From Clostridia bacterium (lineage in GTDB: Bacteria > Bacillota > Clostridia > Christensenellales > CAG-314), in NCBI GenBank assembly GCA_036654455.1, contig JAVVRZ010000006.1, positions 1-44,310 on the forward strand: DNA of 44,310 nt, in the 5' to 3' direction. Under the pieces are notes generated by a model. That model saw nothing but the letters and a program-made list of their open reading frames with translations. It did no database searches and was not told the DNA's origin. Made by a program: the position numbers and the translations under genes. Within the stretch, counting starts at the first letter, position 1; each line of letters begins with the position of its first letter. Shown one piece after another: positions 3,010-27,504 of this stretch.

Positions 3010-5313
3010 GTGTTAGGATTTTTAAATACAAACACAGTTGGCGGTATCTTTTTAATAATTGCAATCTTGATTGTTTCAGGGCTACTTATATGGTTGCTTG
3101 TTGTTCGAACAAGACACGATAGACTTTATTTTATAGATTTATACAACAAAAAAAGAATTTTTACCAAGCCCGAAATGTTAAAGTCCCTTAACGGCTCTAT
3201 CAGCATAAATAGAGAATTCTACTTATTTATGCTACAAGCCAGAAGTTACAAAGACCTTATCTCTCTATATTCGCAGGATAGCGTAGAATCGGCAATGAAT
3301 TTAATTTTTTCTCGCATCGATACCGAAATGCCCGAAGGAGTAAGGCTTTCTCGCATAGAGCGTGACAGCATCTTAGTATTTGTTAAGCAGGAAAAAAACA
3401 TAGATATAGGCACAATCGCAAAAAAACTTAAAGATATATCAGCAAGAAACGTTTTGCTAGAAAGCAGAAAAAACATACGAATAGATTTTTCGGTAGCTAT
3501 CGTAGGCTACCCAAACGACGGCGACAATCTCAGCACCCTTATGAGTATGCTTCAAATATCTTTAACCGATGGCAAACGTGCAGTTTCGGGCAATCTTACT
3601 GTAAGTAGAAGCGGACAAATCGCCGTAGAAGACTACGAAACCGAACGCAAAGAGATTAAAGAAGCGCTTGATAAAGAACAGTTTGTGCTATTCTACCACC
3701 CCGTATTAGAAACAAGAAATATGAAGATAGCCGGCGCAGAGTGTTTAATTAGATGGAATCACCCAACACGAGGTATGTTACCGCCATCGGCTTTTTTCCC
3801 GGTATTTGAACGACTAGGCGAAATGCATGCGCTTGCGCTATGGGTGTTTGACCATTCGGCAAAACAGCTCGCTTATTGGCGCTCCCAAAAGTCGAACAAC
3901 TTGTGGCTGTCGGTAAATATGTCAATCAACCAACTTAGCAACCCTATAATAGTGCGTGAGTTTACTAAAATTTTGAAAAAATACGACTTAGTAGCCGGCG
4001 ACTTCTATTTTGAAGTATACGATTTAGCTATGTATTCTAAGCTAGAAGGCATACGCACGACCGTTGACCAACTATCCCGTATGGGCTTTAAAATATCGGT
4101 TGATAAATTCGGCAAAGGCAGTTCCTCTATAACCGAGTTAGAACAATTACCATTGTCGCAAATTAAAGTCGATATGAGTTTGCTTGAACGAGCAAGAGAG
4201 AACGTCTTGTACGGCGGAATAATAAACACATTGTCGGACTACGTAAGACAAAAAAATATTATGTTAGTCGCTGACGGCGTTGAAAACAAAGAAGACTTAG
4301 ACTTAGCGCATATATACAAATTGCCGTATTTACAAGGTTTCTACTTTACACGACCGGTATCTACTAACGAATTTGAGAATTTGTTTACCGACGATTCGTG
4401 GAAAATTGCCAAAGGTATCGGCGACAGCTTATCTACAAGCATAAACAAAAAAATTGCGTCGCCTGATATTAAAGTCGGTTTAATCCAAGACGACAACACA
4501 ACAATCGGCGAGAAAATAAATAGTGATAAAATAGATAGTGACAAATCAAACGGAAAGAAAGTACAAATTGACGCTACGACACCCGAATTAAAAGCCAGCG
4601 TTAAGAGTTTTTCGGGCGATACTCAAATTGTTGCGCCTTCAACCGATTCAACGCCCATTGATAAAAATGTACTTAAAGTTGGTAAGTTGCTTGACGAAAT
4701 AGAAATGCCAAACGTAGATAATACTAAACAGGGCGGTTCGGCAAGTGAAATAGCGATCGCTAGCGAGCAAGACGCTTCTTCTAGTCGGTCAAGCCAAACA
4801 GGTGGCAAACAAGTAGCAAAGAAAGCCTCAAATGGCGAGCAAGCTGACAAAAACACCGTAGCTAAGGCAAATTCAACCGTAAAAAAGACTTCAACTGTAA
4901 AAAAGGCGGTTACTTCTTCGGCAACGGCAAGCAAAGACAATAATACTAGCGACGGCGAAATTAAAGCGAAAAAGCCACCAGCTAAGGCAACCCCAAAAAC
5001 TGACGGCGAAATTAAGTCGAAAAAGCCACCAGCTAAGGCAACCCCAAAAACTGACGGTGAAGTTAAAGTTAAAAAGCCACCAGCTAAGGCAAGCCCAAAA
5101 ACTGACGGAAACATTCTCAAAGCAAAAAAGTCTTCAACCAAAGTTATCGAGCCGATAAAAATTGAAGATTCGAGGTTGGGCAAGGGATTAATGCAAGCTA
5201 ATTCTCAACCCAAACCTACAAATAAACAAAGTAAAGCCGACCCGATAAAGATTGAGGCTATTCCCACCCGAGTAGACGGCTTTGATAATAAGGACGACAA
5301 ACCCGATACCTAA
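3010..5313 (+). CDS. Membrane-anchored degenerate EAL protein with K/A/P-rich repeat tail
   Basis: A 767-residue protein starting at GTG, preceded by AAGGAGG at 2998-3004. One transmembrane helix lies at about 12-33, a divergent GGDEF-like region follows (about 50-200), then an EAL domain (about 215-450). Glu244 of the EAL box survives as E-C-L-I-R and Asn in N-M-S is kept, but the metal-binding D-D-F-G-T-G is D365-K-F-G-K-G, and A-E-G-V-E is A-D-G-V-E (Asp422). Loss of the second aspartate argues against phosphodiesterase activity; a c-di-GMP-binding or scaffold role is inferred. Residues about 450-767 are low complexity, rich in K, S, T, A and P, with three 17-residue repeats. Placed directly behind an apparently active EAL gene, it may tether or regulate it at the membrane. 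Confidence 0.8.
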   Translation: MLGFLNTNTVGGIFLIIAILIVSGLLIWLLVVRTRHDRLYFIDLYNKKRIFTKPEMLKSLNGSISINREFYLFMLQARSYKDLISLYSQDSVESAMNLIFSRIDTEMPEGVRLSRIERDSILVFVKQEKNIDIGTIAKKLKDISARNVLLESRKNIRIDFSVAIVGYPNDGDNLSTLMSMLQISLTDGKRAVSGNLTVSRSGQIAVEDYETERKEIKEALDKEQFVLFYHPVLETRNMKIAGAECLIRWNHPTRGMLPPSAFFPVFERLGEMHALALWVFDHSAKQLAYWRSQKSNNLWLSVNMSINQLSNPIIVREFTKILKKYDLVAGDFYFEVYDLAMYSKLEGIRTTVDQLSRMGFKISVDKFGKGSSSITELEQLPLSQIKVDMSLLERARENVLYGGIINTLSDYVRQKNIMLVADGVENKEDLDLAHIYKLPYLQGFYFTRPVSTNEFENLFTDDSWKIAKGIGDSLSTSINKKIASPDIKVGLIQDDNTTIGEKINSDKIDSDKSNGKKVQIDATTPELKASVKSFSGDTQIVAPSTDSTPIDKNVLKVGKLLDEIEMPNVDNTKQGGSASEIAIASEQDASSSRSSQTGGKQVAKKASNGEQADKNTVAKANSTVKKTSTVKKAVTSSATASKDNNTSDGEIKAKKPPAKATPKTDGEIKSKKPPAKATPKTDGEVKVKKPPAKASPKTDGNILKAKKSSTKVIEPIKIEDSRLGKGLMQANSQPKPTNKQSKADPIKIEAIPTRVDGFDNKDDKPDT
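4951..5103 (+). repeat. Three tandem 51-bp coding repeats (K-K-P-P-A-K units)
   Basis: Units begin at 4951, 5002 and 5053, each starting GACGGCGAAATTAAA or a close variant, and a partial fourth begins at 5104. Each encodes 17 residues of the form D-G-E-I-K-x-K-K-P-P-A-K-A-T-P-K-T. The lysine/proline/alanine composition resembles histone-H1-like tails, which are known to bind nucleic acid or polyanions; that role is only an analogy here. Confidence 0.9.
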
Positions 5314-5455: not shown

Positions 5456-6646
5456 CTATTTAAGATTGTAAGATTTTGCAAGTTTTTCAAATGCAGGCAA
5501 GCTGTTGAGTATTTGTTGAGTAGTTTTACAGTAAGATATACGCACAAAACCCGGATAACCAAAACTGTTGCTCGCAACAAGCAGTAATTCAAATTCTTTT
5601 GCCTTTTGGCAGAATTTATTTGCGTCGCTTTCGGGACTCTTGACAAATAAATAGAATGCTCCGTCGGGGTGAACGCAAGAAAAACCGTATTGCGTGAGGG
5701 CGTCATATAATATATTACGATTTTGTTCGTAGACCTTAATATCGCTTGTTGCGCCCATACATAGTGGCATTAACTTTTGGTACATACTCGGGGCGCAAAT
5801 ATAGCCTAAATATCTGCCTGCTCCGCAAATTGCTGCGTAGATATCGTCAATGCTACGCATATTTGGTGTTAAGGCTACGTATCCAATTCTTTCGCCCGGA
5901 AGCGACCAAATTTTGGAGAAAGAGTAGCAAACAATAGTGTCGGTGTAATACGCTGGGATATAAGGAACAACGGTGTTGTCATAGACAAGTTCTCTATATG
6001 GTTCGTCGGATACTATAAATATTTGGCTGTCAAATTCCTTTTCTTTGCGAACAAGAATGTCGGCAAGTTGTTGAATAGTTTTGCTAGGATAAACTACGCC
6101 GGTTGGGTTGTTGGGGGAATTTACTACAACTGCCTTAGTGTGAGCCGTAATTAATTTCTCTAACGCATCAAAGTCAGGCAATAGCGTGTCGCTATGCGAA
6201 GGACAAGAAACAAGCTTTGCGCCTGCCGAATCGATAAATACGCTGTATTCGGCAAAATATGGAGCAAATAGAATAATTTCGTCGTCCGGCACAGAAATTG
6301 CGTGGAAAGTTGCCGATAATGCCGCCGATGCGCCAACGGTTAGGTATATGTAGTTAGGGTCAAGGTAAGCGTGTTGAGTCTTGTCAATAAAGTCCGCAAC
6401 CGCTTTGCGAGATGCAAGGTCGCCTTGCGCCGAAGTATAACCGTGCAGTTCAACCGGATTAGAATTTTTTAATAAGTCAATTAATGTTTGTGTAATGCAA
6501 TCGGGCGCTGGTACGCTAGGGTTGCCAATACTAAAATCGAATACGTTCTCTTTGCCAATTTGTTGTTCACGTATCTTGCTGTACTCGAAGGTTTCTCTTA
6601 TTGCCGAGCGTTTTTTACCCAGTTGCATCATTTTTTTTGATATCAT
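5456..6646 (-). CDS. PLP-dependent class I/II aminotransferase (aspartate aminotransferase-like)
   Basis: A 396-residue fold-type I aminotransferase. Characteristic features are F-D-F-S-I-G-N-P-S near the N-terminus, N-S-P-N-N-P-T-G in the middle, S-D-E-P-Y-R with the PLP-contacting Asp and Tyr, and S-F-S-K-I-W-S-L-P-G-E-R-I-G containing the Schiff-base lysine. The closest match by eye is the clostridial AspC-like group of about 395 residues. The substrate is not fixed by sequence; transfer of amino groups to 2-oxoglutarate or oxaloacetate would fit an amino-acid fermenter. The start is set by AAGGAGAAATATAATG. It is a single-gene unit with its own promoter at 6682-6710 and the shared terminator at 5400-5430. 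Confidence 0.85.
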   Translation of the reverse strand: MISKKMMQLGKKRSAIRETFEYSKIREQQIGKENVFDFSIGNPSVPAPDCITQTLIDLLKNSNPVELHGYTSAQGDLASRKAVADFIDKTQHAYLDPNYIYLTVGASAALSATFHAISVPDDEIILFAPYFAEYSVFIDSAGAKLVSCPSHSDTLLPDFDALEKLITAHTKAVVVNSPNNPTGVVYPSKTIQQLADILVRKEKEFDSQIFIVSDEPYRELVYDNTVVPYIPAYYTDTIVCYSFSKIWSLPGERIGYVALTPNMRSIDDIYAAICGAGRYLGYICAPSMYQKLMPLCMGATSDIKVYEQNRNILYDALTQYGFSCVHPDGAFYLFVKSPESDANKFCQKAKEFELLLVASNSFGYPGFVRISYCKTTQQILNSLPAFEKLAKSYNLK

Positions 6647-6681
6647 TATATTTCTCCTTAATATTATTTTAATTTAAACAA

Positions 6682-6710
6682 AATATATCACACAAATAGA
6701 CAAGTGTCAA
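6682..6710 (-). promoter_or_regulatory. Sigma-A promoter of the aminotransferase gene
   Basis: On the minus strand, TTGACA (6710-6705) and TATATT (6687-6682) are separated by 17 bases, giving a leader of about 30 bases before AAGGAG and the start codon. Confidence 0.75.
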
Positions 6711-7119
6711 GAGCATAAAAACTTAAATATTTTTTGTTAAATATCATAGATATCAAACAGTATTTAAAAAGGCAATTTTTAATAAATTATACAAAAAAAG
6801 ACTTCTCAAAACAAAAATATTCAAATTTTCTTCTTATTATACAAAACACAATGGAATATCATATAATAAAAAGCCTTATGGTTAAGATTATATAATTATA
6901 TTTTAAAGACGGTTAAAGCTATATAAATACAAAATTTAAGTTTTTATTGTCGTCTTTAATGGCAAAAGTTGATTATGTTTATTGCATATTAAATAAAAAT
7001 AGAGTCGCTAATTCAAAAATAGTTGGTAAAATTTAAATATTGATGTAAGCGAATGTTCTTAAAAGTAGCAAAAAGGAAAAGATTTGTTAATTATTTACAA
7101 TCTTTTTTTAAAAAGGGTA

Positions 7120-7147
7120 TTGACAATTATTGTGAGTATGGTAAAAT
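7120..7147 (+). promoter_or_regulatory. Upstream sigma-A promoter, opp operon
   Basis: TTGACA (7120-7125), a 16-base spacer and TAAAAT (7142-7147). It would give a leader of about 280 bases if used for oppA. Confidence 0.6.
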
Positions 7148-7303
7148 TTAAATGTAGTTTGTGATGGAAAATCAAAAAAATATATCTAAGGTGGAATACA
7201 TACGCGCAGAACTTACATAACACTTTATTAAATGATAAAATGGCAAGATGAGCGCATTTTGCTACCTTTATTATTAATTTTTATTAATATTAGCGTCACA
7301 AGT

Positions 7304-7332
7304 TTGACAAACCTGCCTTGATGGGGTAAAAT
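7304..7332 (+). promoter_or_regulatory. Proximal sigma-A promoter, opp operon
   Basis: TTGACA (7304-7309), a 17-base spacer and TAAAAT (7327-7332). The predicted transcript starts near 7339 and has a leader of about 95 bases ending in the strong GGAGG ribosome site. Confidence 0.75.
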
Positions 7333-7432
7333 TAACAAAATATATTTCTTGAAGGTGCTCCGCTTGCTAAGGTAAGCCAAAAACCTTACAGGTTAATATA
7401 ATTAAACACAACATAAAAATGGAGGTAAAACT

Positions 7433-10393
7433 ATGAAAAAAAGCAAAATTTTAGCATTATTACTTGCTGTAATTATGCTATTGACTGCTGGTCTTGCTGC
7501 CTGTGCTCCTTCCGCTGACGAAATTGCAAAAGCAAAGGGCGAATTAGACGCTTTCGCAACCGAGTTAAAAGGAAAGACAGATTACTCAACAGAGCAACTA
7601 GCTCAGTTAGACGAAGCTTTGGCAGCTGCTAAGACAGCGCTTGACAACGCCAAAGACTCTGACGCCCTAGCTGCTGCCGTTACCGCTGGTAAGGCTGCTC
7701 TATCCGCAGTTGACGCAGCTACCGAGATTGCTAAGGCAAGAGCGGACGCTATTAAGGCGATTGAGGCAGAAGTAGCTCAGCTTGACGAAAAGTACGATTA
7801 CACTGCGGCAAACTTAACCAAACGTAACGACGAAGTTGCTAAGGTTAAAGCTGCAATTAATGCCGGACTTAATCAAGACGCTATCGACGCAGCGTCTGCT
7901 AATGGCAAAGCTGCAATCAATGGAATTGCTCACACAGTTAAGGAATTCACATACCAAGATACATTTGTGACCGCTCCTTCTACTTGGAATCCTCATACAT
8001 ATCGTACAACTGATGACTCATACCTAATTGGTTACATCACAAACGGTTTGTATAGTTTCTATTTCAATGATACGTTTAATGGATACAGTATTAAACCTGA
8101 AATGGCAGAAGCTGAACCCGTTGACATCACTGAAGAAGCAAAGAAAGAAGCAAAATGGGGTATCCCAGCTGACGCTACTAAGGGTTACGCTTATAAAATA
8201 GCTCTTAACAGAAACGCTGTTTGGGAAGATGGCACACCTATCAATGCTGAAACTTATATGTATTCTTTAAAAGAACTACTTAATCCCGCTGCGCAAAACT
8301 ACCGTGCGCAAGACGCAATCAACGGACAATTAGTTTATAAGAATGCTGAAAAGTATTTTAGATCAGACTCTCCTATTTATGAAGCTGTTGTTAAATACGT
8401 AGACGATAAGCCAGTTATCACAGATCCTGATTGGGCAACCAAAGATTTGTGGGTATCAATGACTAAGTATCCTACGTTTGGCTCTTATACATTCTTTGAC
8501 CTAGAAGATTATGGCGCATCATACGTTAAAGATGGCGTTAATATTCGTGAGAAATTAACCAAACTTGAAAATATGTATGGCTATTTCAAACTTGACGATA
8601 CAAACAGAGCTGACTTTGAGTATTGCGTAGGTCAATATGGTTCTCCGTTTGGAATGAGCCCAGAACAAATGCTACAACCCGGTAACCTTCGTGAATTCTA
8701 CTCGTTATACAAAGGAATGACCGAAAAATTTGACTTTGCTAACGTTGGTATGTATCAAGGCAAAGACGAATACGAACTTGTAATTGTACTTGAAAAAGCT
8801 CTAAGCGGTTTCTATCTACTTTACAATTTATCTTCAAATAACATTGTTCACAAAGGCTTATACGAAGCTAATAAGGTTGTTGTTGGTAGCACATTCTCTT
8901 CAACATACAACACATCCACAGACACAACGCTAAGCTATGGTCCTTACAAACTTCAAAGATACCAGAACAGCAAAGAAATGTACCTAGTTAAGAATGAAAA
9001 ATGGTACGGCTGGACCGATGGCAAACACACGTTTATAGACCCTAAGGGCGTAGAGCACGAAATGTATCAAGCTACCGCTGTTCACGCAAAATTAGTAGCT
9101 GAGGCTTCAACCAGAAAAGAAATGTTCTTAAAAGGACAACTTGACGGTTACGGTCTACAAAAAGCTGACTTTGCAGAATATCGTACAAGCACTCGTATTT
9201 ACTTTACTCCTAGCGAAACAATATTCTTCTTAATCTTAAACGGCTATACCAAGGCTCTTGAAGCTAGACAAAATGCAACGCCCGGCGTTTGCAGAAAGAT
9301 TATTGCTTACAAAGATTTCAAGATGGCTATGTCACTAGCTTATGATAAAGAAGCATTTGCAGCTTCGATTTCTCCCGCTCGTTCAGGTGGTTATGCTCTA
9401 ATAGGCGACCCATACATTTACGAACCGGAAACCGGCGCTCAATATCGTAGCACCAAACAAGCTATGCAAGTACTTTGTGACTTCTACGGTATGGAATATG
9501 GCGATGGCGAAGCTTATGCTACAATTGAAGAAGCCGTTGCAGCTATTACCGGTTACAACCCAACTCTTTCAAAAGAGTATTTCTTAAAAGCAATCAACGA
9601 AGCTATTAAGAATGGCGATATGGTTGCCGGCGATAGAGTTGAAATTGTTTATGCAATTTCATCAGACTCAGACTTTATGACACAAACAATCAATTACCTT
9701 AACGCAGGAATTAAAGCCGTACTTGCAGGCACAGAGTACGAAGATAAGATTACCGTAGTTAAGAGCGCTCCTTGTGGTGGCCAATGGTCAGAAAAGATTA
9801 GAAGTGGCGAACTTGACACCGTTCTTGGCGGTTGGTCTGGCGGACTACTTGACCCGTTTGGAATGATGGACTGCTATGTAAACCCTGCAAAACAATATGA
9901 TGGCAAGTGGTTCAATGCAAACGAAGTTAAGTTAACTCTAACTCTTGCTGGTTACACCAAAGATGCTGACGGTAAAGATTTACCTGCTGGCGAGACAATT
10001 AGTTATAACGAAGGCAAACCAATAACCCTAACCTTAAAACAATGGTCTGACTGTATTAGTGGTACAGCTATTGAAGTAACAGTTGGTGGCACAGTAGAAG
10101 CTCCCATTAAGATTACTTTAAACTTTGGTTATGGTATGGCTCCCGCTGATGCAAGACTTGATATTTTGGCTGCTATTGAAGGTACTGTTCTACAAACTTA
10201 CAACTACATCCCAATGTTACAAGACGCTGGCGCATCATTACTATCATTCAAGCTTGAATGGATCAAACAAGACTATGACGCCGTTATGGGTCGTGGTGGT
10301 CTAACATACGCTAGATTTAACTACTCTGATAAGGCTTGGACAGCATTTGTAGCTGCGCAAGGCGGAGAACTTAACTACAAGTCAAGTACATAA
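7433..10393 (+). CDS. oppA: Oligopeptide ABC transporter substrate-binding lipoprotein with N-terminal helical repeats
   Basis: A 986-residue extracytoplasmic lipoprotein that should capture peptides for the permease encoded downstream. Residues 1-24 form a signal peptide with lipobox L-A-A-C, Cys25 being the lipidated residue. Residues about 30-165 are two tandem helical repeats of about 65 residues (compare D-Y-S-T-E-Q-L and D-Y-T-A-A-N-L), resembling FIVAR-type cell-wall-associated modules. The SBP family 5 domain occupies most of the rest, with the W-E-D-G-T-P-I-N-A-E segment typical of OppA/DppA. At nearly 1,000 residues it is far longer than the usual 530-600. The start is preceded by GGAGGTAAAACT. 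A strong hairpin after the gene probably lets it be expressed above the permease genes. The peptide specificity is unknown. Confidence 0.88.
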   Translation: MKKSKILALLLAVIMLLTAGLAACAPSADEIAKAKGELDAFATELKGKTDYSTEQLAQLDEALAAAKTALDNAKDSDALAAAVTAGKAALSAVDAATEIAKARADAIKAIEAEVAQLDEKYDYTAANLTKRNDEVAKVKAAINAGLNQDAIDAASANGKAAINGIAHTVKEFTYQDTFVTAPSTWNPHTYRTTDDSYLIGYITNGLYSFYFNDTFNGYSIKPEMAEAEPVDITEEAKKEAKWGIPADATKGYAYKIALNRNAVWEDGTPINAETYMYSLKELLNPAAQNYRAQDAINGQLVYKNAEKYFRSDSPIYEAVVKYVDDKPVITDPDWATKDLWVSMTKYPTFGSYTFFDLEDYGASYVKDGVNIREKLTKLENMYGYFKLDDTNRADFEYCVGQYGSPFGMSPEQMLQPGNLREFYSLYKGMTEKFDFANVGMYQGKDEYELVIVLEKALSGFYLLYNLSSNNIVHKGLYEANKVVVGSTFSSTYNTSTDTTLSYGPYKLQRYQNSKEMYLVKNEKWYGWTDGKHTFIDPKGVEHEMYQATAVHAKLVAEASTRKEMFLKGQLDGYGLQKADFAEYRTSTRIYFTPSETIFFLILNGYTKALEARQNATPGVCRKIIAYKDFKMAMSLAYDKEAFAASISPARSGGYALIGDPYIYEPETGAQYRSTKQAMQVLCDFYGMEYGDGEAYATIEEAVAAITGYNPTLSKEYFLKAINEAIKNGDMVAGDRVEIVYAISSDSDFMTQTINYLNAGIKAVLAGTEYEDKITVVKSAPCGGQWSEKIRSGELDTVLGGWSGGLLDPFGMMDCYVNPAKQYDGKWFNANEVKLTLTLAGYTKDADGKDLPAGETISYNEGKPITLTLKQWSDCISGTAIEVTVGGTVEAPIKITLNFGYGMAPADARLDILAAIEGTVLQTYNYIPMLQDAGASLLSFKLEWIKQDYDAVMGRGGLTYARFNYSDKAWTAFVAAQGGELNYKSST

Positions 10394-10442
10394 TAGTACT
10401 TAACTAGCTAAGATTTTACACTTATTCTAGCATAGAAACTAA

Positions 10443-10480
10443 GTTAATACTGGGGCATTTAATATGCCCCAGTACTTAAC
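10443..10480 (+). terminator. Intercistronic hairpin between oppA and oppB
   Basis: GTTAATACTGGGGCAT (10443-10458) pairs with ATGCCCCAGTA plus TTAAC (10464-10480, one bulged C), leaving a five-base loop. There is no T-run behind it, so it is more likely an mRNA-stabilising or processing element than a full terminator. Confidence 0.75.
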
Positions 10481-10484
10481 CGAA

Positions 10485-10554
10485 AAGCTATATTTGTTTT
10501 ACTTATGTCGCTAGAAATTTAAGCTATATTTGCATTACCTATGTCGCTAGAAAT
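10485..10554 (+). repeat. Two tandem copies of a 34-bp element before oppB
   Basis: Copies at 10485-10518 and 10521-10554 share AAGCTATATTTG and ATGTCGCTAGAAAT and differ at three bases between these blocks, with a 36-bp period. They lie between the hairpin and the oppB ribosome site and do not encode anything. Their function is unknown; they could be a duplicated operator or simply a local duplication. Confidence 0.75.
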
Positions 10555-10603
10555 AACGTTATAGGCAATGTAAATAAATTAAAATAACTATAGGAGAAAT
10601 ACG

Positions 10604-11629
10604 ATGTTTAAGTATGCAATTAAAAGAATACTCCTCATGTTGTTGACATTCAGCATTATAATGCTAATTTGTTTCGTACTTGTTAAGTTATTGCCTCTGC
10701 CAGAGGTACTAGACGAAAGATACAGAGAAGCAATACTTGCAAGAAGAGAGATGCTAGGATACAACAAACCAATCTTAGTACAATTTGGCTTACTGGCTAA
10801 ATATGTAATTACAGACTGGAATTGGGGACTGGGTGAAACTTATATGACAGGCCTTGAAGTAGCCGATGTTTTTGCCGAGAAGCTACCTGCGACTATGATA
10901 GTCAACTTATGGTCTATTATACTAAGTATCCCGATTGGCATAGCGCTTGGTGTGTGGGCTGCTCTTAAAAAGAATTCTATTACCGACCACACAATTTCTA
11001 CGGTTGTTATGTTATCTATTTCCGTCCCGTCCTTTGTTTACGCCTTCCTGGTTCAATATTTATTCTGCTTTAAACTAGGTTGGTTTGATATGCAAATGCT
11101 AGCCTTAGGCGAGTGTATGAAAAAGATGGGGTATGATTTAAACTTAGTTGGATACGATGATTTGTCTTGGATTAAACAAGCTGGGGTATATTTTTCGCTA
11201 CCAATGTTTTTGAGCATTATGCCTGCGATTATGTCGTTGTCCTTTGGTACGATTGCCGGCTTTACAAGGGTAACAAGAGCCGAACTTACCGAGGTATTGA
11301 CGAGCGAATTTATGTTGCTTGCCAGAACAAAAGGTTTAACTAAGGCTCAGGCTACATATAGACACGCTATGAGAAACTGTATGGTAGTTATATTGCCCGC
11401 TATATTTGGTCAATTTATTGGAATTTTAGGAGGCTCGCTGGTCATTGAGAAGATATTTGGTATTCCCGGCGTTGGCGAGCTATACTTAGGTTCTATTACT
11501 GCAAGAGACTATAACTTCTTTATGATGTTAACTGCGTTCTATACCTTTATTGGTCTAGCCGCTGGTATTGTTGTCGACATCAGTTACGGATTCATTGATC
11601 CGAGGATTAGAATGGGGGCGAAGAAATAA
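10604..11629 (+). CDS. oppB: Peptide ABC transporter permease OppB/DppB
   Basis: A 341-residue inner-membrane permease subunit. Its N-terminal helix starts at the first residues (F-K-Y-A-I-K-R-I-L-L-M-L-L-T), and about five further helices follow from residue 95 on. The EAA-type cytoplasmic loop is readable as L-A-R-T-K-G-L-T-K-A-Q-A-T-Y-R-H-A, the docking site for the ATPases, followed by the conserved E-x-I-F-G-I-P-G-V-G-E-L segment. It is the only Opp subunit here of ordinary length. ATAGGAGAAATACG precedes the start codon. Its stop overlaps the oppC start by one base (TAATG), indicating coupled translation. Confidence 0.93.
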   Translation: MFKYAIKRILLMLLTFSIIMLICFVLVKLLPLPEVLDERYREAILARREMLGYNKPILVQFGLLAKYVITDWNWGLGETYMTGLEVADVFAEKLPATMIVNLWSIILSIPIGIALGVWAALKKNSITDHTISTVVMLSISVPSFVYAFLVQYLFCFKLGWFDMQMLALGECMKKMGYDLNLVGYDDLSWIKQAGVYFSLPMFLSIMPAIMSLSFGTIAGFTRVTRAELTEVLTSEFMLLARTKGLTKAQATYRHAMRNCMVVILPAIFGQFIGILGGSLVIEKIFGIPGVGELYLGSITARDYNFFMMLTAFYTFIGLAAGIVVDISYGFIDPRIRMGAKK

Positions 11630-13188
11630 TGAACTCACAAGATATGAAGACAACTGTAATCGCCAAAGAGAAGTTTCAATTTGCTCAACTTGGCGATAGA
11701 TTAAGCGACAAAAAGTTAGAAACTAAGCCGGTAGGGTATCTTAAAGATGCTCTTATAAGATTTAGAAAGAATAAATCTTCGGTTATAGCCGCATTTATAA
11801 TTGCCTTTTTGGTATTGTTTGCAATCGTTGCGCCTATGATATCGCAATACACCTTGCAAGATAAAGACTTAGTTTATCAAACAAAGCGTCCTTATGCGGC
11901 AATTTTTGCACCCCTTGGTTTTTGGGACGGTGGCTATAATAATATGAAGAACGAAAGCGACTATTTATTTGAACACGCTAAGTTTATAGAAACCGGACAC
12001 AACCCAATAATTGCGCTACACAAAGAGATTACCGAAGAAGTTGAGGTGATAGTTAACGGCGTTCCTCAAAAAATTACGAGAAAGAATTACGATGTAAGAA
12101 TTGACTCGTATCACGAGGTTGGCATAATAATGAAGAACTTGTCAGCCGCCGAATACGAGCAAGTACAGGCTTATCAAGATGCGACAGGCAGACAAATAAT
12201 TTATCCTTTGGTTAACAAGACTCTACTTAATGGTAGAGACGAGACCGTTGGCGGACCAAACTATTGGTATTGCGTTGATAAATTAGGCAAACCCGAACTT
12301 GACAAAGATGGCAACTTTATCCCTGCGTATTTGGACAAGACTAAGCCCGGACAAAGCAGAACTGATAATTATACTAGTCAACGTATCAAAGGCGACGTAG
12401 GCAATTATGTTTATGCAGAGCTAAACCAATCCGGTTACAGTACTCGTATATGCTATTATGAATATTACATCTATATTAATGGCTACGCTCCAACTTACTT
12501 ATTTGGCACGACTAGCTTAGGACAAGATTTATTCTGCGCAATAGGTCAAGGCGCAAGATTTTCACTTATGCTCGCTATTGTAGTATCGGCGCTTAACTTA
12601 ACAATCGGCGCAATTTATGGCGCAATTGAAGGTTATTACGGTGGCGCTATCGATATGATATTAGAAAGGGTTTCGGACGTCTTGTCGGGTGTGCCGTTTA
12701 TGGTCGTAGCGACCTTATTCCAGATGCACTTGGCTGAAAAGGTAGGCGTAGTCGTCAGCTTCCTGTTTGCTTTCGTAATGACGGGGTGGATAGGTATGGC
12801 GTCGTTAGTACGTAAGCAATTTTATAGGTTTAAAGGACAAGAATATATCTTAGCCGCTAAATCATTAGGAGCGGGAGATTTTAGAATAATGTTTAAGCAC
12901 ATTTTCCCCAACTCGCTAGGCACTATTATAACAAGTTGCGTACTTGTAATACCGGGTGTAATTAGTAGTGAAACGATGATGACTTATTTAGGCATAGTAG
13001 ACCTAAGCGGTACAAACAATACCAGTATTGGCACATTACTTGCGCAAGGTAACACTTATTTAACATCTGCGCCACACGTATTGTTCTGGCCTTCGCTATT
13101 CCTAGCTTTACTGTTAATAACATTTAACTTGTTTGGTAACGGTCTAAGAGATGCGTTCAACCCATCATTAAGAGGAGCGGAGGACTAA
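11629..13188 (+). CDS. oppC: Peptide ABC transporter permease OppC/DppC with large extracytoplasmic insertion
   Basis: A 519-residue permease, against about 300 normally. The OppC N-terminal domain and first helix (about 48-72) are followed by an extra stretch of about 165 residues before the usual G-T-T-S-L-G-Q-D-L motif (from about residue 293; H-x-L-G-T-D-x-x-G-R-D in most family members). The insertion is hydrophilic and rich in Y, N, D and K, and by topology lies outside the membrane. The five C-terminal helices and the EAA loop L-A-A-K-S-L-G-A-G-D-F-R-I-M-F-K-H are intact, so the protein should be functional. An outer-face insertion could contact the enlarged OppA. Confidence 0.9.
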   Translation: MNSQDMKTTVIAKEKFQFAQLGDRLSDKKLETKPVGYLKDALIRFRKNKSSVIAAFIIAFLVLFAIVAPMISQYTLQDKDLVYQTKRPYAAIFAPLGFWDGGYNNMKNESDYLFEHAKFIETGHNPIIALHKEITEEVEVIVNGVPQKITRKNYDVRIDSYHEVGIIMKNLSAAEYEQVQAYQDATGRQIIYPLVNKTLLNGRDETVGGPNYWYCVDKLGKPELDKDGNFIPAYLDKTKPGQSRTDNYTSQRIKGDVGNYVYAELNQSGYSTRICYYEYYIYINGYAPTYLFGTTSLGQDLFCAIGQGARFSLMLAIVVSALNLTIGAIYGAIEGYYGGAIDMILERVSDVLSGVPFMVVATLFQMHLAEKVGVVVSFLFAFVMTGWIGMASLVRKQFYRFKGQEYILAAKSLGAGDFRIMFKHIFPNSLGTIITSCVLVIPGVISSETMMTYLGIVDLSGTNNTSIGTLLAQGNTYLTSAPHVLFWPSLFLALLLITFNLFGNGLRDAFNPSLRGAED

Positions 13189-13191
13189 ACA

Positions 13192-15360
13192 ATGGAAAAG
13201 AAATTACAAGTAAAGAATTTAAAAATATCGTTTAGAACAAGCAATGGCAAAGTGCAAGCTGTTCGTGACGTTAGTTTTGACCTCAACAAAGGCGAAACAC
13301 TCGCCATAGTTGGCGAGAGTGGTAGCGGTAAATCTGTTACCAGTAGAGCAATCTTAGGCATACTTGCAAACAACTCTATTATTGAAGATGGCGAGATATT
13401 CTACGACGGTCAAGACTTACTTAAAATAACCGAAGACGACTTCCATAAGATAAGAGGCGACAAGATAGCTATGATTTTCCAAGACCCTATGTCGAGTCTT
13501 AACCCGGTTGTGCGTATCGGCAAACAACTAACTGAGGCAATGTTACTCAAAAACAAGGCAAGCAGAAGAAACAGCCGTAGAGATTTCCACGAGAAAATGA
13601 ATTTACTGTTGAAATGCACTAACCTTGCTATGGGCGCTCAAACTAATAAAGAAGTATCAGCGGCAAACAGCGCAAAAGTTAAAAAGTTTAACAAATTTGA
13701 ACTTAAACATATCCAATTAGAGGCGTCGTACAATATTGCTCACGAAGCTGCAAAAGAAGGGTTAGAAGACGTAGAAGAGTTAATCCTTCAAATACCCAAG
13801 CTTGCAGTAGTTAATATTGTAAAAGAAGTTCAAAGCATAGTCAAAAAGTCAGTTCTTGCAATTAACCCCTTTGTGGTAATCAATGGCGAGGAAATGAACG
13901 CTTTGTCAACTCAGCTAACCGAGCTTGCCGAGTTACACAAAAAAGACAAACTATTTGACGATATTATGCCAATCGCAAAGCAAATTAAAACTTTGCTAGA
14001 TAACGCTTTGGCGTTAGAACAACCAAACTTTTTTGCGCTAGGTTACTATTTAACTTTTGTAGACGGCGTAGTTCCTGAAAAAGCAAGCATAGCTCAACTC
14101 AATGCAGAAATGAGAAAAGTTCTTGACGACGAGTTTATGATTGACTTTATCGCTACAATGGAGAATGGTATTAAATACTCTTTCCAAAAATCACTAGAAG
14201 AAAAGAAAAACGTAGTTAAATTACTTAGCGAACAAATTGCGATATTTGACAAATCTGGTTTTACCAAAAAAGACGCAAACGATGCTTTCAAACTTATGTT
14301 TAAAGCAGTTAGCTTATCGCTAGATAGATTGCAAATTATTAAAGACAGCCTTGCTTATACCTTTAAGTCGTCTTTAAAAAGCGCAATCGACAACTACTTT
14401 GTAGCTATTAAGAAGAACGCTACCGAAGTTGTTAGATTTAATAAACAAACTGCAAAGAAGAACAAGGCTGAGGCAAGGGGCAAGGAAGTTAGCTGGACGG
14501 TAGTTCCAGCCGACGTAAAAGACCTTGACGTAATGAAAGACCATATTAAACGCATTATCAACAACCTTATCGCTCACTATTCTAAGGCAGAAGATAACGC
14601 CGAACATTATGACGCTAACGCAACGGCAATCGACCTAATAGACTTCTTTAAGACTATGTCGTCGGCAATGGTTTATAAAGTAACGCCCACAATGGCAAAT
14701 AATACTGCCCTTAAACTAATGGAAGAAGTTGGTATACCCGAAGCTCGCAAGAGATTTAGACAATATTCTTTCCAATTCTCAGGCGGTATGAGACAGCGTA
14801 TTGTTATCGCTATCGCTTTGTCGGCTAACCCCGATATCTTGATTTGCGACGAACCTACAACTGCGCTAGACGTTACAATCCAAGCTCAAATTCTTGAATT
14901 AATCAATGACCTTAAACGTGAAAGGCATTTGTCGGTTATCTTTATTACCCACGACTTAGGCGTCGTAGCTAATATGGCAGACCGCATAGCCGTTATGTAT
15001 GCAGGCAAAATTGTAGAATATGGCACAGCAGAAGACGTTTTCTACAACCCCAGACACCCTTATACTTGGGCTTTGTTGTCTTCAATGCCCGACCTTGACA
15101 CAAATGAAAAGTTGGACGCTATACCCGGCACGCCTCCAAATATGATTTACCCGCCACTTGGCGACGCATTTGCAGAAAGGAATAAATACGCTATGCAAAT
15201 TGACTTTGAGGAGCAACCTCCAATGTTCCAAATCAACGAAACGCACTATGCCGCTACGTGGCTATTGCATCCGGACGCTCCAAAAGTTGACCCGCCTAAG
15301 GCTGTTACAGACAGAATTGCCCGTATGAAGAAGTTAGGAGGCGCTAGTGATGGAAAATAA
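13192..15360 (+). CDS. oppD: Peptide ABC transporter ATPase OppD split by a 370-residue insertion
   Basis: A 722-residue ATPase, about twice the usual 330. Walker A G-E-S-G-S-G-K-S is at 41-48 and the Q-loop M-I-F-Q-D-P-M-S-S-L at 94-103. The signature F-S-G-G-M-R-Q-R starts only at 529, followed by Walker B I-L-I-C-D-E-P and the H-loop I-T-H-D. The Q-loop-to-signature distance is about 430 residues instead of about 65, so about 370 residues are inserted in the helical subdomain. The insert is K/E/A/L-rich and predicted helical, with no recognised domain. The C-terminal oligopeptide region is present, but the cysteines of the usual C-P-F-x-x-R-C-P motif are replaced (D-A-F-A-E-R-N-K-Y-A-M), so the Fe-S cluster known in some Dpp ATPases is not expected. 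It begins three bases after oppC ends, with AGGAGCGGAGG ahead of the start. Confidence 0.92.
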   Translation: MEKKLQVKNLKISFRTSNGKVQAVRDVSFDLNKGETLAIVGESGSGKSVTSRAILGILANNSIIEDGEIFYDGQDLLKITEDDFHKIRGDKIAMIFQDPMSSLNPVVRIGKQLTEAMLLKNKASRRNSRRDFHEKMNLLLKCTNLAMGAQTNKEVSAANSAKVKKFNKFELKHIQLEASYNIAHEAAKEGLEDVEELILQIPKLAVVNIVKEVQSIVKKSVLAINPFVVINGEEMNALSTQLTELAELHKKDKLFDDIMPIAKQIKTLLDNALALEQPNFFALGYYLTFVDGVVPEKASIAQLNAEMRKVLDDEFMIDFIATMENGIKYSFQKSLEEKKNVVKLLSEQIAIFDKSGFTKKDANDAFKLMFKAVSLSLDRLQIIKDSLAYTFKSSLKSAIDNYFVAIKKNATEVVRFNKQTAKKNKAEARGKEVSWTVVPADVKDLDVMKDHIKRIINNLIAHYSKAEDNAEHYDANATAIDLIDFFKTMSSAMVYKVTPTMANNTALKLMEEVGIPEARKRFRQYSFQFSGGMRQRIVIAIALSANPDILICDEPTTALDVTIQAQILELINDLKRERHLSVIFITHDLGVVANMADRIAVMYAGKIVEYGTAEDVFYNPRHPYTWALLSSMPDLDTNEKLDAIPGTPPNMIYPPLGDAFAERNKYAMQIDFEEQPPMFQINETHYAATWLLHPDAPKVDPPKAVTDRIARMKKLGGASDGK

Positions 15361-16573
15361 TAATGAAATTTTACTCAAAGTAGAACATTTATGTCAATAC
15401 TTTAAGATGGGACCAGGATTTGAACTTAAAGCTGTAAATGACATTAGCTTTAACATCAAAAAAGGCGAAGTTTTCGGGCTAGTTGGCGAGTCTGGTTGCG
15501 GTAAAACAACTACGGGTCGTTCAATTATGAAGTTATACGACGCTACGTCGGGTAACGTTTATTTCAAGGGCGAAAGAATTGTAGCAGGGACACGTTCTTA
15601 TCAAAACGCTATCAAAACGGCAAAAAATGACTTTAAGGCTTTTTGCAAAACTTCTACCGATAAACTTGAAATAGAGAAAAAGAGAGCCGAAACCGAAAAA
15701 ATAGTTTTAGCCCAAAGACAACTTATCAAAGAGGCTAGATTTGACCATCTAAATTGCGATAAAGTTTATTCTCGCAAATTAGTTGACAAATTAAACGACG
15801 AATACCTACCTCAAATTGATGCCGCTCAATCTGATGCCGAAAAAGCTAAGCTAACCACCGAATATAAAGAAAAAGTTAGACTAGCTAAGAAAGAAAGATT
15901 GATTAACGAAATTCAAATGATTTTCCAAGACCCAATAGCTTCTCTTGACCCTCGTATGACGGTTAGAGATATTATATCCGAAGGTTTAATTATCAAAGGC
16001 GTTAAGGACAAAAAGTATATAAACGACCAAGTCAACACAGCGCTTGAACAAGTTGGCCTTGTGCGTGAACACGCCGATAGATATCCCCACGAATTTAGTG
16101 GCGGTCAACGACAAAGAATAGGCGTAGCTCGTTCAATCATTATGCGCCCCGAGCTAATCGTCGCCGACGAACCTGTTTCTGCGCTAGACGTTTCTATACA
16201 AGCGCAAGTTATCAACCTTTTAAACGACCTAAGGAAAGAATTAGGGCTAACAATTATGTTTATTGCCCACGACTTGTCGGTTGTTAAGTACTTCTCAAAT
16301 AGAATTGCAGTTATGTACTATGGCAATTTGGTTGAGTTAACTACTTCAAACGAGTTATTCTTAAATCCTTTACACCCATACACTCGTTCCTTGTTATCGG
16401 CAATACCTCTTCCAGACCCAATCTATGAGAAGACTAGAAAGAGAATTGTCTATAATCCTATCGCAGACCACGATTACACAAAAGAAAAACCAATTTTAAG
16501 AGAAATCAAAGAAGGGCATTTTATCTTGTGTAACACTGAGGAGTTTGAAAGATACAAGAAGGAATTAAAGTAA
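15350..16573 (+). CDS. oppF: Peptide ABC transporter ATPase OppF with a 90-residue insertion
   Basis: The second ATPase of the transporter. Walker A G-E-S-G-C-G-K-T is at about 46-53, the Q-loop M-I-F-Q-D-P at about 190, F-S-G-G-Q-R-Q-R at about 249 and Walker B I-V-A-D-E-P at about 270, so all catalytic motifs are present. The distance from Walker A to the Q-loop is about 140 residues instead of about 55 because of a K/E-rich helical insertion (about 80-184). This is a different site from the OppD insertion. The C-terminal tail lacks the usual cysteine motif. I place the start at ATG 15350, eight bases after AGGAGG (15336-15341); an in-frame GTG at 15347 is the alternative. It overlaps oppD by 11 bases. 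Confidence 0.92.
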   Translation: MENNNEILLKVEHLCQYFKMGPGFELKAVNDISFNIKKGEVFGLVGESGCGKTTTGRSIMKLYDATSGNVYFKGERIVAGTRSYQNAIKTAKNDFKAFCKTSTDKLEIEKKRAETEKIVLAQRQLIKEARFDHLNCDKVYSRKLVDKLNDEYLPQIDAAQSDAEKAKLTTEYKEKVRLAKKERLINEIQMIFQDPIASLDPRMTVRDIISEGLIIKGVKDKKYINDQVNTALEQVGLVREHADRYPHEFSGGQRQRIGVARSIIMRPELIVADEPVSALDVSIQAQVINLLNDLRKELGLTIMFIAHDLSVVKYFSNRIAVMYYGNLVELTTSNELFLNPLHPYTRSLLSAIPLPDPIYEKTRKRIVYNPIADHDYTKEKPILREIKEGHFILCNTEEFERYKKELK

Positions 16574-21166: not shown

Positions 21167-21180
21167 ATAAATATAATTAA

Positions 21181-21352
21181 ATACATAGAGGAGCGAGTAA
21201 CAAGGTATAACTTAACTTGGGCTGCAACCCCCGATAGTTAGTTAGAATATGCTGCTTGCCGAAGGCTAGCAGTTTGTTGCGACTGTTCGTCTGGTAACAA
21301 TACTTAGGGTGTTGTTACTGTCAATTTAACAGATAGTTAGTTGAAGCGCTAT
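21181..21352 (+). promoter_or_regulatory. Lysine riboswitch (L box) in ON geometry
   Basis: The five-way junction can be drawn by hand. P1 is 21185-21188 with 21349-21352; P2 base 21193-21201 with 21251-21259; P3 21263-21273 with 21282-21292; P4 21294-21303 with 21309-21318 (10 pairs); P5 21321-21330 with 21336-21344. Conserved L-box blocks are visible: AGAGGAGCG, GCCGAAG after P2, CTGG after P3 and ACTGTCA after P4. The P2 interior is shorter than in classical members. The 3' arm of P1 (CTAT) is also part of the following terminator, so ligand-stabilised P1 and the terminator exclude each other and lysine should allow read-through. This fits control of lysine breakdown rather than synthesis. 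Confidence 0.87.
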
Positions 21353-21392
21353 TAGAGAATTTTACATTCTTTAATAGCTTTTTGTATTTTTT
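21348..21392 (+). terminator. Riboswitch expression platform: intrinsic terminator
   Basis: GCTATTAGAGAAT (21348-21360) and ATTCTTTAATAGC (21366-21378) form 13 pairs (one G-U) around TTTAC, followed by TTTTTGTATTTTTT. It overlaps the P1 3' strand at 21349-21352. The kal ribosome site AGGAGGAG starts directly behind at 21393. Confidence 0.9.
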
Positions 21393-21407
21393 AGGAGGAG
21401 TTTTAAT

Positions 21408-21791
21408 ATGAAATGTACAATCAGGCTAAGAATGAGCGCTCATGATGCGCATTATGGCGGTAATCTAGTTGACGGAGCAAGAATGCTTGCTTTGTTCGGC
21501 GACGTTGCTACCGAACTACTCATTAGACAAGACGGCGACGAAGGTTTGTTCTGCGCTTATGACAACGTAGAATTTAAAGCCCCAGTTCACGCCGGCGACT
21601 TTATTGAGGCGGAAGGCGAAATTGTCAATGTCGGCAGAACAAGCCGTAAAATGACATTTGCCGCTTATAAAATAATCACTCCAAGAAACGACATCAACGA
21701 TTCGGCTTGCGACGTGTTAGAAACGCCTATTCTTGTTTGCAAAGCCTCAGGTACTTGCGTAGTTCCGCTCGACAAACAAAGAAACAAATAG
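21408..21791 (+). CDS. kal: 3-aminobutyryl-CoA ammonia-lyase
   Basis: A 127-residue hotdog-fold protein with the length and start typical of Kal ([21 protein letters not shown]). It removes ammonia from L-3-aminobutyryl-CoA to give crotonyl-CoA, the last step specific to lysine fermentation. The family is a thioesterase-like hotdog turned lyase; the H-x-x-Y-G-G segment and the central hotdog helix with D-G-A-x-M-L-x-L-F-G-D-V-A-T are clear. It is the first gene after the lysine riboswitch, with a strong AGGAGGAG eight bases upstream of ATG. A 138-base gap with only a weak 6-bp hairpin (21812-21827) separates it from kce. Confidence 0.92.
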
Positions 21792-21929
21792 TCTCGTCTA
21801 ACTTAATAAGTTTGTCGCTACCGACAACATAACCAAGGTAGAATTAGAATATTTAAATATAGTTTTAAGGCTTATTTAAATTATTATAACTTATTACTCA
21901 ACAAGAAATATATTAAAGAGGTACTAGAT

Positions 21930-22748
21930 ATGGATAAATTAATTATTACAGCCGCAATTTGTGGCGCAGAAGTAACTAAGGAACAAAATTCCGCAGTTCC
22001 CTATACCGTAGCAGAAATTGCCGAGCAGGCTTATGGCGCATACCAAGCCGGCGCAAGCATAATTCACCTACACGTAAGAGAAGACGACGGTTCTCCAACG
22101 CAATCGGCTAAGCGTTTCGACGCTTGCATCAAGGCTATTAAGGCAAAGTGTCCCGACGTTATCATTCAACCTAGCACAGGCGGAGCAGTTGGTATGAGCA
22201 ATGACGAAAGATTAGAGCCTATTACCCTTATGCCCGAGATGGCAACTCTTGATTGTGGCACTTGCAACTTTGGCGGAGACGATATATTTGTCAACACCGA
22301 AAACACTATTATTGAATTTGCCGAAAAAATACAAGCAAGACATATTAAACCCGAAATTGAAGTTTTTGACAAAGGTATGGTTGATATTGCTTTAAGACTC
22401 AACAAAAAAGGCATTATCGCTTCTCCTATGCACTTTAACTTTGTTATGGGCGTAAACGGCGGTATCGGCGCAACTCCTCGTGACCTAGTATTTATGGCTG
22501 GCAGTATTCCGCAAGGCAGTACTTTTACAGTGTCGGGCGTAGGCAAAGGACAATTTCCAATGGCTACAATGTCAATACTACTCGGCGGTAACGTAAGAGT
22601 TGGCTTTGAAGATAACGTATATTTAGAAAAAGGCGTTAAAGCAAAGAGCAATGGCGAATTAGTAGCAAAAGTAGTAGCTATCGCTAAATTACTCGGCAGA
22701 GAAATTGCAAATCCAGCCGAAGCAAGAGCGATATTAAATTTAAAATAA
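21930..22748 (+). CDS. kce: 3-keto-5-aminohexanoate cleavage enzyme
   Basis: A 272-residue TIM-barrel enzyme of the BKACE (DUF849) family. It condenses 3-keto-5-aminohexanoate with acetyl-CoA and splits it into acetoacetate and L-3-aminobutyryl-CoA. The zinc ligands His46 and His48 are seen in I-I-H-L-H-V-R, and the substrate-binding segment Q-P-S-T-G-G follows at about 80. The C-terminal V-G-F-E-D-N region carries the conserved Glu. Length and motifs match Kce of Fusobacterium and Acetoanaerobium rather than other BKACE members, and the neighbours settle the substrate. AAGAGGT precedes ATG. Confidence 0.93.
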   Translation: MDKLIITAAICGAEVTKEQNSAVPYTVAEIAEQAYGAYQAGASIIHLHVREDDGSPTQSAKRFDACIKAIKAKCPDVIIQPSTGGAVGMSNDERLEPITLMPEMATLDCGTCNFGGDDIFVNTENTIIEFAEKIQARHIKPEIEVFDKGMVDIALRLNKKGIIASPMHFNFVMGVNGGIGATPRDLVFMAGSIPQGSTFTVSGVGKGQFPMATMSILLGGNVRVGFEDNVYLEKGVKAKSNGELVAKVVAIAKLLGREIANPAEARAILNLK

Positions 22749-22797
22749 GATATATATATCTTAACAATAATTAAAAAATTAAAGGAGATTTACAAAA

Positions 22798-23835: not shown

Positions 23836-23862
23836 TAAATTAAAAACAGAGAGAGGGGAAAA

Positions 23863-25113: not shown

Positions 25114-25145
25114 TATTTAGGTCGCAAGACCACACAAAAAGAGAT

Positions 25146-27494: not shown

Positions 27495-27504
27495 GGAGAA
27501 AAAT

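Follow-up and report, generated by a model that had tools for sequence, protein, structure and literature searches.

In the solved Dpp importer of Escherichia coli, the regions between transmembrane helices (TM) 1 and 2 of the permeases DppB and DppC are periplasmic, a scoop motif after TM1 of DppB contacts the binding protein DppA, and the C permease partners the ATPase F rather than D (PMC12136057). In the maltose importer, the P2 region of the permease MalF contacts the binding protein MalE (PMC3150292). Here we describe a peptide importer operon, oppABCDF, at positions 7433-16573 of a 44,310-nucleotide contig from a Clostridia bacterium (JAVVRZ010000006.1; hereafter the window, meaning the whole stretch that was analyzed), whose permease OppC carries an additional domain in its TM1-TM2 loop. 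Related loci are denoted by L numbers and genomes by G numbers.

The OppC insert is a conserved TM1-TM2 loop domain that is under purifying selection and co-diverges with the body of the binding protein OppA. We give about an even chance to the reading that this is a type I importer with a MalF P2-like OppA-docking domain in OppC, in which the outer and motor modules evolve separately.

The TM1-TM2 ectodomain of OppC

The oppC gene (11629..13188, + strand, 519 aa) was assigned as a permease with an ectodomain insert from Pfam and NCBIfam matches, phmmer, a structure model and VIA-align. In the phmmer alignment, OppC residues 28-88 and 290-513 match residues 16-76 and 82-300 of E. coli OppC, leaving an insert of about 200 residues (89-289) with no E. 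coli counterpart. Counted over residues 76-288 (11854..12492, + strand), the ectodomain occupies a TM1-TM2 loop of 216 residues, compared to 80 in L171, the closest insert-poor relative. The initial annotation had proposed an outside-facing insert of about 165 residues; the insert is real, and its size is about 200 residues relative to E. coli, with 165 falling between the E. coli and L171 differences.

The AlphaFold2 (AF2) model of OppC, built with 80 sequences, has a mean predicted local distance difference test score (pLDDT) of 90.3 and shows the insert as a compact mixed alpha/beta domain between TM1 and TM2, with pLDDT mostly above 90 and block means of 71 at residues 201-210 and 78 at 241-250. 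In VIA-align, the E. coli OppC chain (8z21_B) fits the model over residues 34-514 with every one of its 278 residues (Z 28.3, root-mean-square deviation 1.8), and the insert is therefore a clean addition within the TM1-TM2 loop. Since the corresponding regions of DppB and DppC are periplasmic, the insert is placed outside the membrane by homology. Several of its residues, such as G101, Y161, P193 and R273, are invariant across the 80 sequences. The median ratio of nonsynonymous to synonymous substitution rates (dN/dS) was 0.19 for the insert (13 of 22 pairs, the others being saturated in dS) and 0.07 for the OppC core; the OppA stalk described below, the OppA body and the OppD insert had medians of 0.34, 0.21 and 0.35, with 12-19 of the 22 pairs usable for each and the others saturated or undefined. 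In pairwise distances, too, the insert evolves faster than the core.

A Pfam scan of 34 OppC inserts found no family above noise (best E 0.013), and a search of the OppC insert against PDB sequences likewise returned nothing above noise (best E 0.17). The MalF chains listed in the whole-OppC VIA search align at chain residues of at least 267, outside P2 (91-271). The structure searches covered whole OppC and whole OppA and so exclude no fold for the insert. Among the matches listed from the open-access PubMed Central literature, none concerned an OppC ectodomain.

OppA body, OppA stalk and their relation to the OppC insert

The first gene, oppA (7433..10393, + strand, 986 aa), encodes a lipid-anchored peptide-binding protein (SBP_bac_5 E 3.2e-25; fold match to OppA/DppE chains with Z 26). 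The best solved substrate-binding protein aligns with 495 of its 510 residues over OppA model residues 169-968, a span of 800, and the OppA body is about 290 residues larger than its solved relatives, an enlargement absent from the initial annotation. Inside the body is an extra segment at residues 296-426 (8318..8710, + strand) in the gap between two SBP_bac_5 stretches, which is not in the Pfam profile and is mostly missing from the OppA of L171.

We compared pairwise distances among 60 operons, thinned from 64 by removing near-identical rows. Operons without five complete genes, L112, L132/L137 and the five operons with a different OppC insert (L051-L055, here called type 2, all others with an insert like the window's being type 1) were left out. 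With OppB and the OppC, OppD and OppF cores as controls, the distances of the OppC insert correlated with those of the OppA body (partial r 0.33, reached in 0/2000 permutations), compared to 0.15 (70/2000) between the OppC and OppD inserts and 0.06 (404/2000) between the OppD insert and the OppA body. In the docking reading, the OppC insert would dock or clamp the enlarged OppA above the OppB/OppC pore, in a manner resembling the contact of MalF P2 with the maltose-binding protein.

Several observations weigh against this reading. The contact between the OppC insert and OppA is one that we infer. OppB, whose counterpart in Dpp is an established contact of the binding protein (PMC12136057), correlates more strongly with the OppA body (partial r 0.60, with one control fewer and the other three kept), so that shared outside exposure may supply part of the insert signal. 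The permutation test leaves some phylogenetic signal, and an 80-residue scan along OppA gave only weak peaks (0.19 at residues 173-252 and 0.20 at 613-692) with no clear contact patch. Many dS values exceed 1, and some stalks in the dN/dS set are shorter than 15 codons. After phylogenetic correction, insert length and OppA body length showed no firm correlation over all rows (r -0.01, rho 0.13, p 0.24); rho was 0.23 (p 0.04) without type 2 and 0.18 (p 0.13) when L112 and the rows with split OppA were also removed, so that a length correlation dependent on the rows used is not firm and was discarded. The type-2 stalks of L054 and L055 contain a helical unit similar to that of the window (0/500 shuffles reach the score of unit 2), which means that this type of stalk is not entirely private.

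The best-surviving alternative, which we consider unlikely, is that the ectodomain binds another outside target, such as the cell wall or a protease, or serves as a second receptor site for peptides, with its link to OppA reflecting a shared substrate ecology. Within the bacterial family, three kinds of domain without detectable kinship are found in the loop (type 1, type 2 and an RCC1-like domain, described below), which would suit variable partners, and some OppF proteins have an apparent membrane hairpin and an outside stretch. The co-divergence of insert and OppA body beyond what the permeases account for argues against this alternative, as do the far-diverged OppA proteins found where the insert differs and the lack of any Pfam match above noise among the 34 inserts.

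A second element of OppA had been paired with the OppC insert in the initial annotation, as matched enlargements on the outer side of the transporter. Two helical units come after the lipobox (LAAC24), at residues 28-97 (7514..7723, + strand) and 96-166 (7718..7930, + strand). The stalk aligns to itself with a score of 96, compared to 37.7 +/- 6.5 for shuffled sequences and with 0/1000 shuffles as high, and the AF2 model places helices at residues 28-46, 53-71, 76-120, 125-145, 148-157 and 159-164. The claim of tandem helical repeats between lipid anchor and binding domain thus holds, with two units, and the pairing does not. At E 0.001 the stalk was matched in 1/61 genomes, which was the window's own, and in none of its 60 relatives, although the same search missed the similar helical unit in G021 and is therefore too insensitive to call the unit wholly private. 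The same position holds 6-241 aa in relatives while their type-1 OppC inserts measure 195-250 aa: it is next to nothing in L037, L046, L047 and L110, a Big_2 domain in L039 (E 4.7e-9), Cys-rich repeats in L050, L131 and L143, and low-complexity linkers in L068 and L128, and it falls to 0 aa in L132/L137, two operons whose OppA is split in two. Stalk and insert lengths had a raw rho of 0.48; corrected for phylogeny, their correlation was weak (r 0.45, rank rho 0.22, p 0.04), and once the five type-2 operons were removed it was unclear (r 0.30, rho 0.17, p 0.13). Given the single occurrence of the stalk, its variable replacements and this weak correlation, we rejected a partnership between it and the OppC insert. 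The stalk looks like a variable spacer, one that may lift the binding domain off the membrane in this lineage and be replaceable by other modules.

FIVAR and DUF1542 are helical repeats of Gram-positive surface proteins, and their likeness to the stalk is that of short helical repeats. Both were rejected as assignments, with scores far below the cut-offs: unit 1 scored 15.4 bits against a Pfam gathering threshold of 29.2 for FIVAR, with unit 2 unlisted, and DUF1542 scored 14.9 bits against 24.3.

Origin and decoupling of the outer and motor inserts

The ATPase gene oppD (13192..15360, + strand, 722 aa) has one Walker A and one signature motif and carries an insert at residues 121-497 (13552..14682, + strand) between the Q-loop and the signature. 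The insert region of OppF (residues 70-176, 15554..15874, + strand), taken from the operon length tables, precedes the Q-loop and ranges over 15-222 aa across the 86 operons measured. This places the OppD insert across the membrane from the OppC ectodomain, which counts against the two forming a pair as initially annotated, as does the partnering of the C permease with F in E. coli Dpp (PMC12136057).

In a FastTree phylogeny of OppB and the OppC and OppD cores, operons with a long OppC form one clade (109 tips, support 0.98) to which L171 is sister (support 1.0); L168 is the same operon as L084, and both are counted in the tips and in the operon size counts. L171 has ordinary sizes (OppA 602, OppC 410, OppD 352 and OppF 321 aa) and already has the stretch preceding the insert (LGIADGT, compared to LGFWDGG in the window). 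Since this sister is of ordinary size, the OppA body, the OppC loop, OppD and OppF would have grown on one stem, and the enlargements other than the stalk seem, from these comparisons, to have arisen there together. Intermediate sizes did not turn up; besides L171, the outgroup comprised few operons (12).

To gauge how widely the inserts occur, we scanned named genome contigs, which gave at least 575 relatives, and retained the best 80, ranked by likeness to the window's OppC, a ranking that favors a long OppC among the named relatives. Genes cut by contig ends were dropped from the length tables (among named loci, L086). In all 79 named relatives with an uncut oppC, the insert is 195-230 aa, counted over window residues 76-288. 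According to the depositors' titles, the 80 are mostly metagenome-assembled genomes of gut and rumen Clostridia, with one named strain, Anaerocaecibacter muris (L125); titles naming other groups (Sphaerochaetaceae L124, Mollicutes L122 and Bacillales L131) are unchecked depositors' labels. In an even sample of the class, the OppC and OppD inserts were found in the identical 7 of 391 genomes, with the two genes adjacent in each, after we dropped a weak OppC-insert match to a 1024-aa non-permease (G191) that had brought the OppC count to 8/391. In the set of 61, the OppC profile matched 18 genomes and the OppD profile 19, with 16 in common: the two with OppC alone (G021 and G023) have contigs ending at oppD, and the three with OppD alone (G016, G025 and G032) carry the type-2 OppC insert. 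In a sample of the phylum, the OppC profile matched 2/348, namely the window's own genome and, weakly, that of the short-loop sister L171 (G673, E 8.9e-4), and the OppD insert profile matched 1/348. In these samples, the pair of inserts is thus a feature of Clostridia, scattered over several families.

Three sets of operons show the inserts occurring independently of each other, an outcome that the initial annotation had named as refuting its proposal. L112 has an OppC insert of 203 aa and an OppA body of 761 aa, and its OppD, of 351 aa, lacks the insert, with 2 residues at the site. Its operon is tidy, with overlapping genes. The L112 OppD core falls, with modest support, beside L129/L134/L120 on a long branch in a mixture-model tree (SH-like approximate likelihood ratio test, SH-aLRT, 79-81) and at the base of the clade in FastTree. 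We read L112 as a probable loss of the OppD insert in place. In the type-2 operons the OppC insert, at 327-348 aa, has only a 15-residue entry motif in common with type 1, and OppA is far diverged (52-69 bits, compared to at least 238 for complete type-1 OppA genes), while the OppD insert profile still matches the type-2 genomes with an assembled oppD (G016, G025 and G032; E 2e-135 to 2e-138). Finally, the same bacterial family has a different opp operon (L064 and L066) whose OppC, of 822 aa (L064:8656-11124) and 707 aa (L066:9580-11703), contains an RCC1-like domain between TM1 and TM2 (RCC1_2 E 3.7e-25 and 1.4e-24) and whose OppD is ordinary (338 and 340 aa).

These operons bear on the possibility that the stalk and the inserts of OppC, OppD and OppF work as a single coordinated machine of mutually needed parts, which we consider improbable. 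Besides the common stem of all but the stalk and the identical 7/391 class genomes, an association in size speaks for it: among complete operons whose OppC reaches 480 aa, 92/95 have an OppD of at least 600 aa (91/94 without the duplicate L168), or 92/93 if the two RCC1 operons are set aside (L168 again duplicating L084), L112, L064 and L066 being the only long OppC without a long OppD among the 95. L049 was scored as a short OppC solely owing to an oppC that appears as two overlapping frames, and L067 as a long OppD owing to two tandem ATPase domains. Against such a machine stand L112, with its OppC insert retained and its OppD site nearly empty, the type-2 operons, which combine another OppC insert with the same OppD insert, and the stalk, which was not found in the 60 relatives. 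The coordinated remodelling suggested in the initial annotation is supported in part: the OppA body, OppC, OppD and OppF are enlarged in one clade, but the stalk does not belong with them and the inserts later went separate ways. Under the docking reading, the OppD and OppF inserts would form a cytoplasmic motor module gained on the same stem and then separately inherited, lost or exchanged.

The type-2 permease cores branch outside every type-1 operon in the set (SH-aLRT 96), and an approximately unbiased (AU) test rejected their grouping with L038 and L044, which belong to the same family (p-AU 0.0005). For the OppD core, L051 and L053 show 95% and 93% identity to type-1 OppD from their bacterial family and are placed within type 1 at two separate positions (SH-aLRT 96 and 99); in an AU test on the type-2 OppD cores, neither alternative tried was rejected (p 0.096 and 0.10). 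Both operon types were seen together in two genomes, G021 and G023. In each, both contigs stop at or just after the oppD start and have exactly 77 identical end bases, which we infer to be an overlap of the sort produced when assembly breaks at a repeat. Between the two operons of G021, the starts of oppD are identical at 375/419 positions, compared to 182/311 aligned columns for the last 300 nt of oppC. A full oppD with insert was not found in the G021 or G023 assemblies. The shared oppD ends next to diverged outer genes suggest that the oppDF copies are kept identical by gene conversion. It is conceivable, at somewhat under an even chance, that such genomes carry two opp operons with diverged OppA/OppB/OppC heads and oppD/oppF held identical in this way, the OppC loop being a socket for unrelated ectodomains, each with its own OppA. 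If true, two peptide-capture heads would run on interchangeable ATPases.

Neutral, functionless loop growth in a fast-evolving operon has little to recommend it: the TM1-TM2 loop does vary in length across Opp operons and the insert does outpace the core, but the compact, confidently predicted fold, the invariant residues, the narrow length range and the low dN/dS all speak against it.

Operon context and comparison with known systems

Judged from its genes, the operon is a type I OppABCDF peptide importer of a Clostridia subfamily with enlarged subunits: it combines a family 5 substrate-binding protein, two BPD_transp_1 permeases and two ATP-binding cassette (ABC) ATPases with oligo_HPY tails. 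OppB (10604..11629, + strand, 341 aa; BPD_transp_1 E 6.8e-33) is of ordinary size, and OppF (15347..16573, + strand, 408 aa) was assigned from Pfam and NCBIfam. As initially annotated, four of the five subunits are enlarged (OppA, OppC, OppD and OppF) and OppB is normal. Both ATPases have Walker A (GESGSGKS / GESGCGKT), Q-loop (IFQDP) and signature (FSGG) motifs. E. coli DppD has the four cysteines of a C-terminal [4Fe-4S] site (PMC12136057); window OppD lacks these four, with only C142 and C552 in the whole protein. We take the site to be lineage-specific, so the importer assignment rests on the remaining features and is unharmed. OppC scored 260.6 bits against NCBIfam Opp3C (NF045475), under the curated cut-off of 450, and OppD 461.8 bits against MMSYN1_0167 OppD (NF043079), under its cut-off of 740.

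The oppA-oppB gap (10394-10603) contains a strong stem-loop at 10446..10476 (gap fold z -4.93; a 13-pair GC-rich stem), which on the - strand has a T-rich tail. A direct repeat of 36 bases occupies 10485-10554. The stem-loop perhaps sets oppA dosage.

Long OppF frames (667-844 aa) were seen in 10/95 operons (L087, L092, L095, L102, L103, L109, L121, which is cut, L123, L132 and L135). In the three read (L087, L092 and L102), a pair of apparent membrane helices, with about 330 residues between them, lies ahead of the ATPase; this hairpin would be a membrane tether with an outside domain. L067, on contig C2 of the window's own genome, is a second peptide-importer operon whose 762-aa ATPase (6292-8580, - strand), with two Walker A and two signature motifs, is apparently an OppD-OppF fusion.

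Elsewhere in the window, the stretch 21178-28899 holds a lysine riboswitch followed by genes for a thioesterase, a BKACE protein, lysine 2,3-aminomutase, the subunits of lysine 5,6-aminomutase and an MFS transporter, and by this gene content is a lysine-fermentation cluster. A 738-aa frame at 31473-33689 (- strand) has a weaker lysine 5,6-aminomutase match (145.9 bits) and is possibly another B12 aminomutase. The suggestion that the importer feeds amino-acid fermentation did not generalize to lysine: lysine 5,6-aminomutase was found in 4/61 genomes, all four with the OppC insert, compared to 18/61 with the type-1 insert, and 14 of those 18 lack it, so the importer is not generally tied to lysine fermentation. 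A role in peptide feeding is plausible as a candidate. A 51-base tandem repeat at 4951-5108 (3.1 copies) codes for a KKPPAKATPKTDG repeat near the end of a 767-aa frame (3010-5313).

In an importer frequent among gut Clostridia, two kinds of enlargement can thus be separated, an outer unit of OppA body and OppC domain and an inner motor. L112, which keeps the outer insert without the motor insert, and the two-operon genomes are natural variants that make both roles directly testable. The unrelated domains in the OppC loop suggest that the importer can alter its outer face at a permease loop, beyond the binding protein.

Among known systems, MalF P2 of MalFGK2E (residues 91-271; PMC3150292) resembles the OppC insert in being an outside permease region of about 180-200 residues. 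Contact with the binding protein is known for P2 (PMC3150292) and proposed for the OppC insert. MalF belongs to a different permease family from OppC. P2 lies between TM3 and TM4, compared to TM1 and TM2 for the OppC insert. The best NCBIfam matches of OppD and OppF are those of the Mycoplasma Opp system (MMSYN1_0165 to 0168), whose profile lengths of 561 (OppD) and 649 (OppF) imply inserted ATPases; the window scores below the cut-offs (461.8 of 740 for OppD and 389.8 of 800 for OppF), and the Mycoplasma OppC profile, at 307 aa, has no space for a long loop, unlike window OppC. The E. coli OppBCDF and DppABCDF and Mycobacterium tuberculosis OppABCD and DppABCD complexes (8z21, 8z1v, 8j5q, 8wd9) have the same subunit folds as the window's importer, and in E. 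coli Dpp an element after a permease TM1 contacts the binding protein (PMC12136057), as we propose for OppC. Relative to these systems, window OppD is without the C-terminal iron-sulfur cysteines, and the importer has gained an OppC ectodomain of about 200 residues, about 290 aa in the OppA body and inserts in both ATPases.

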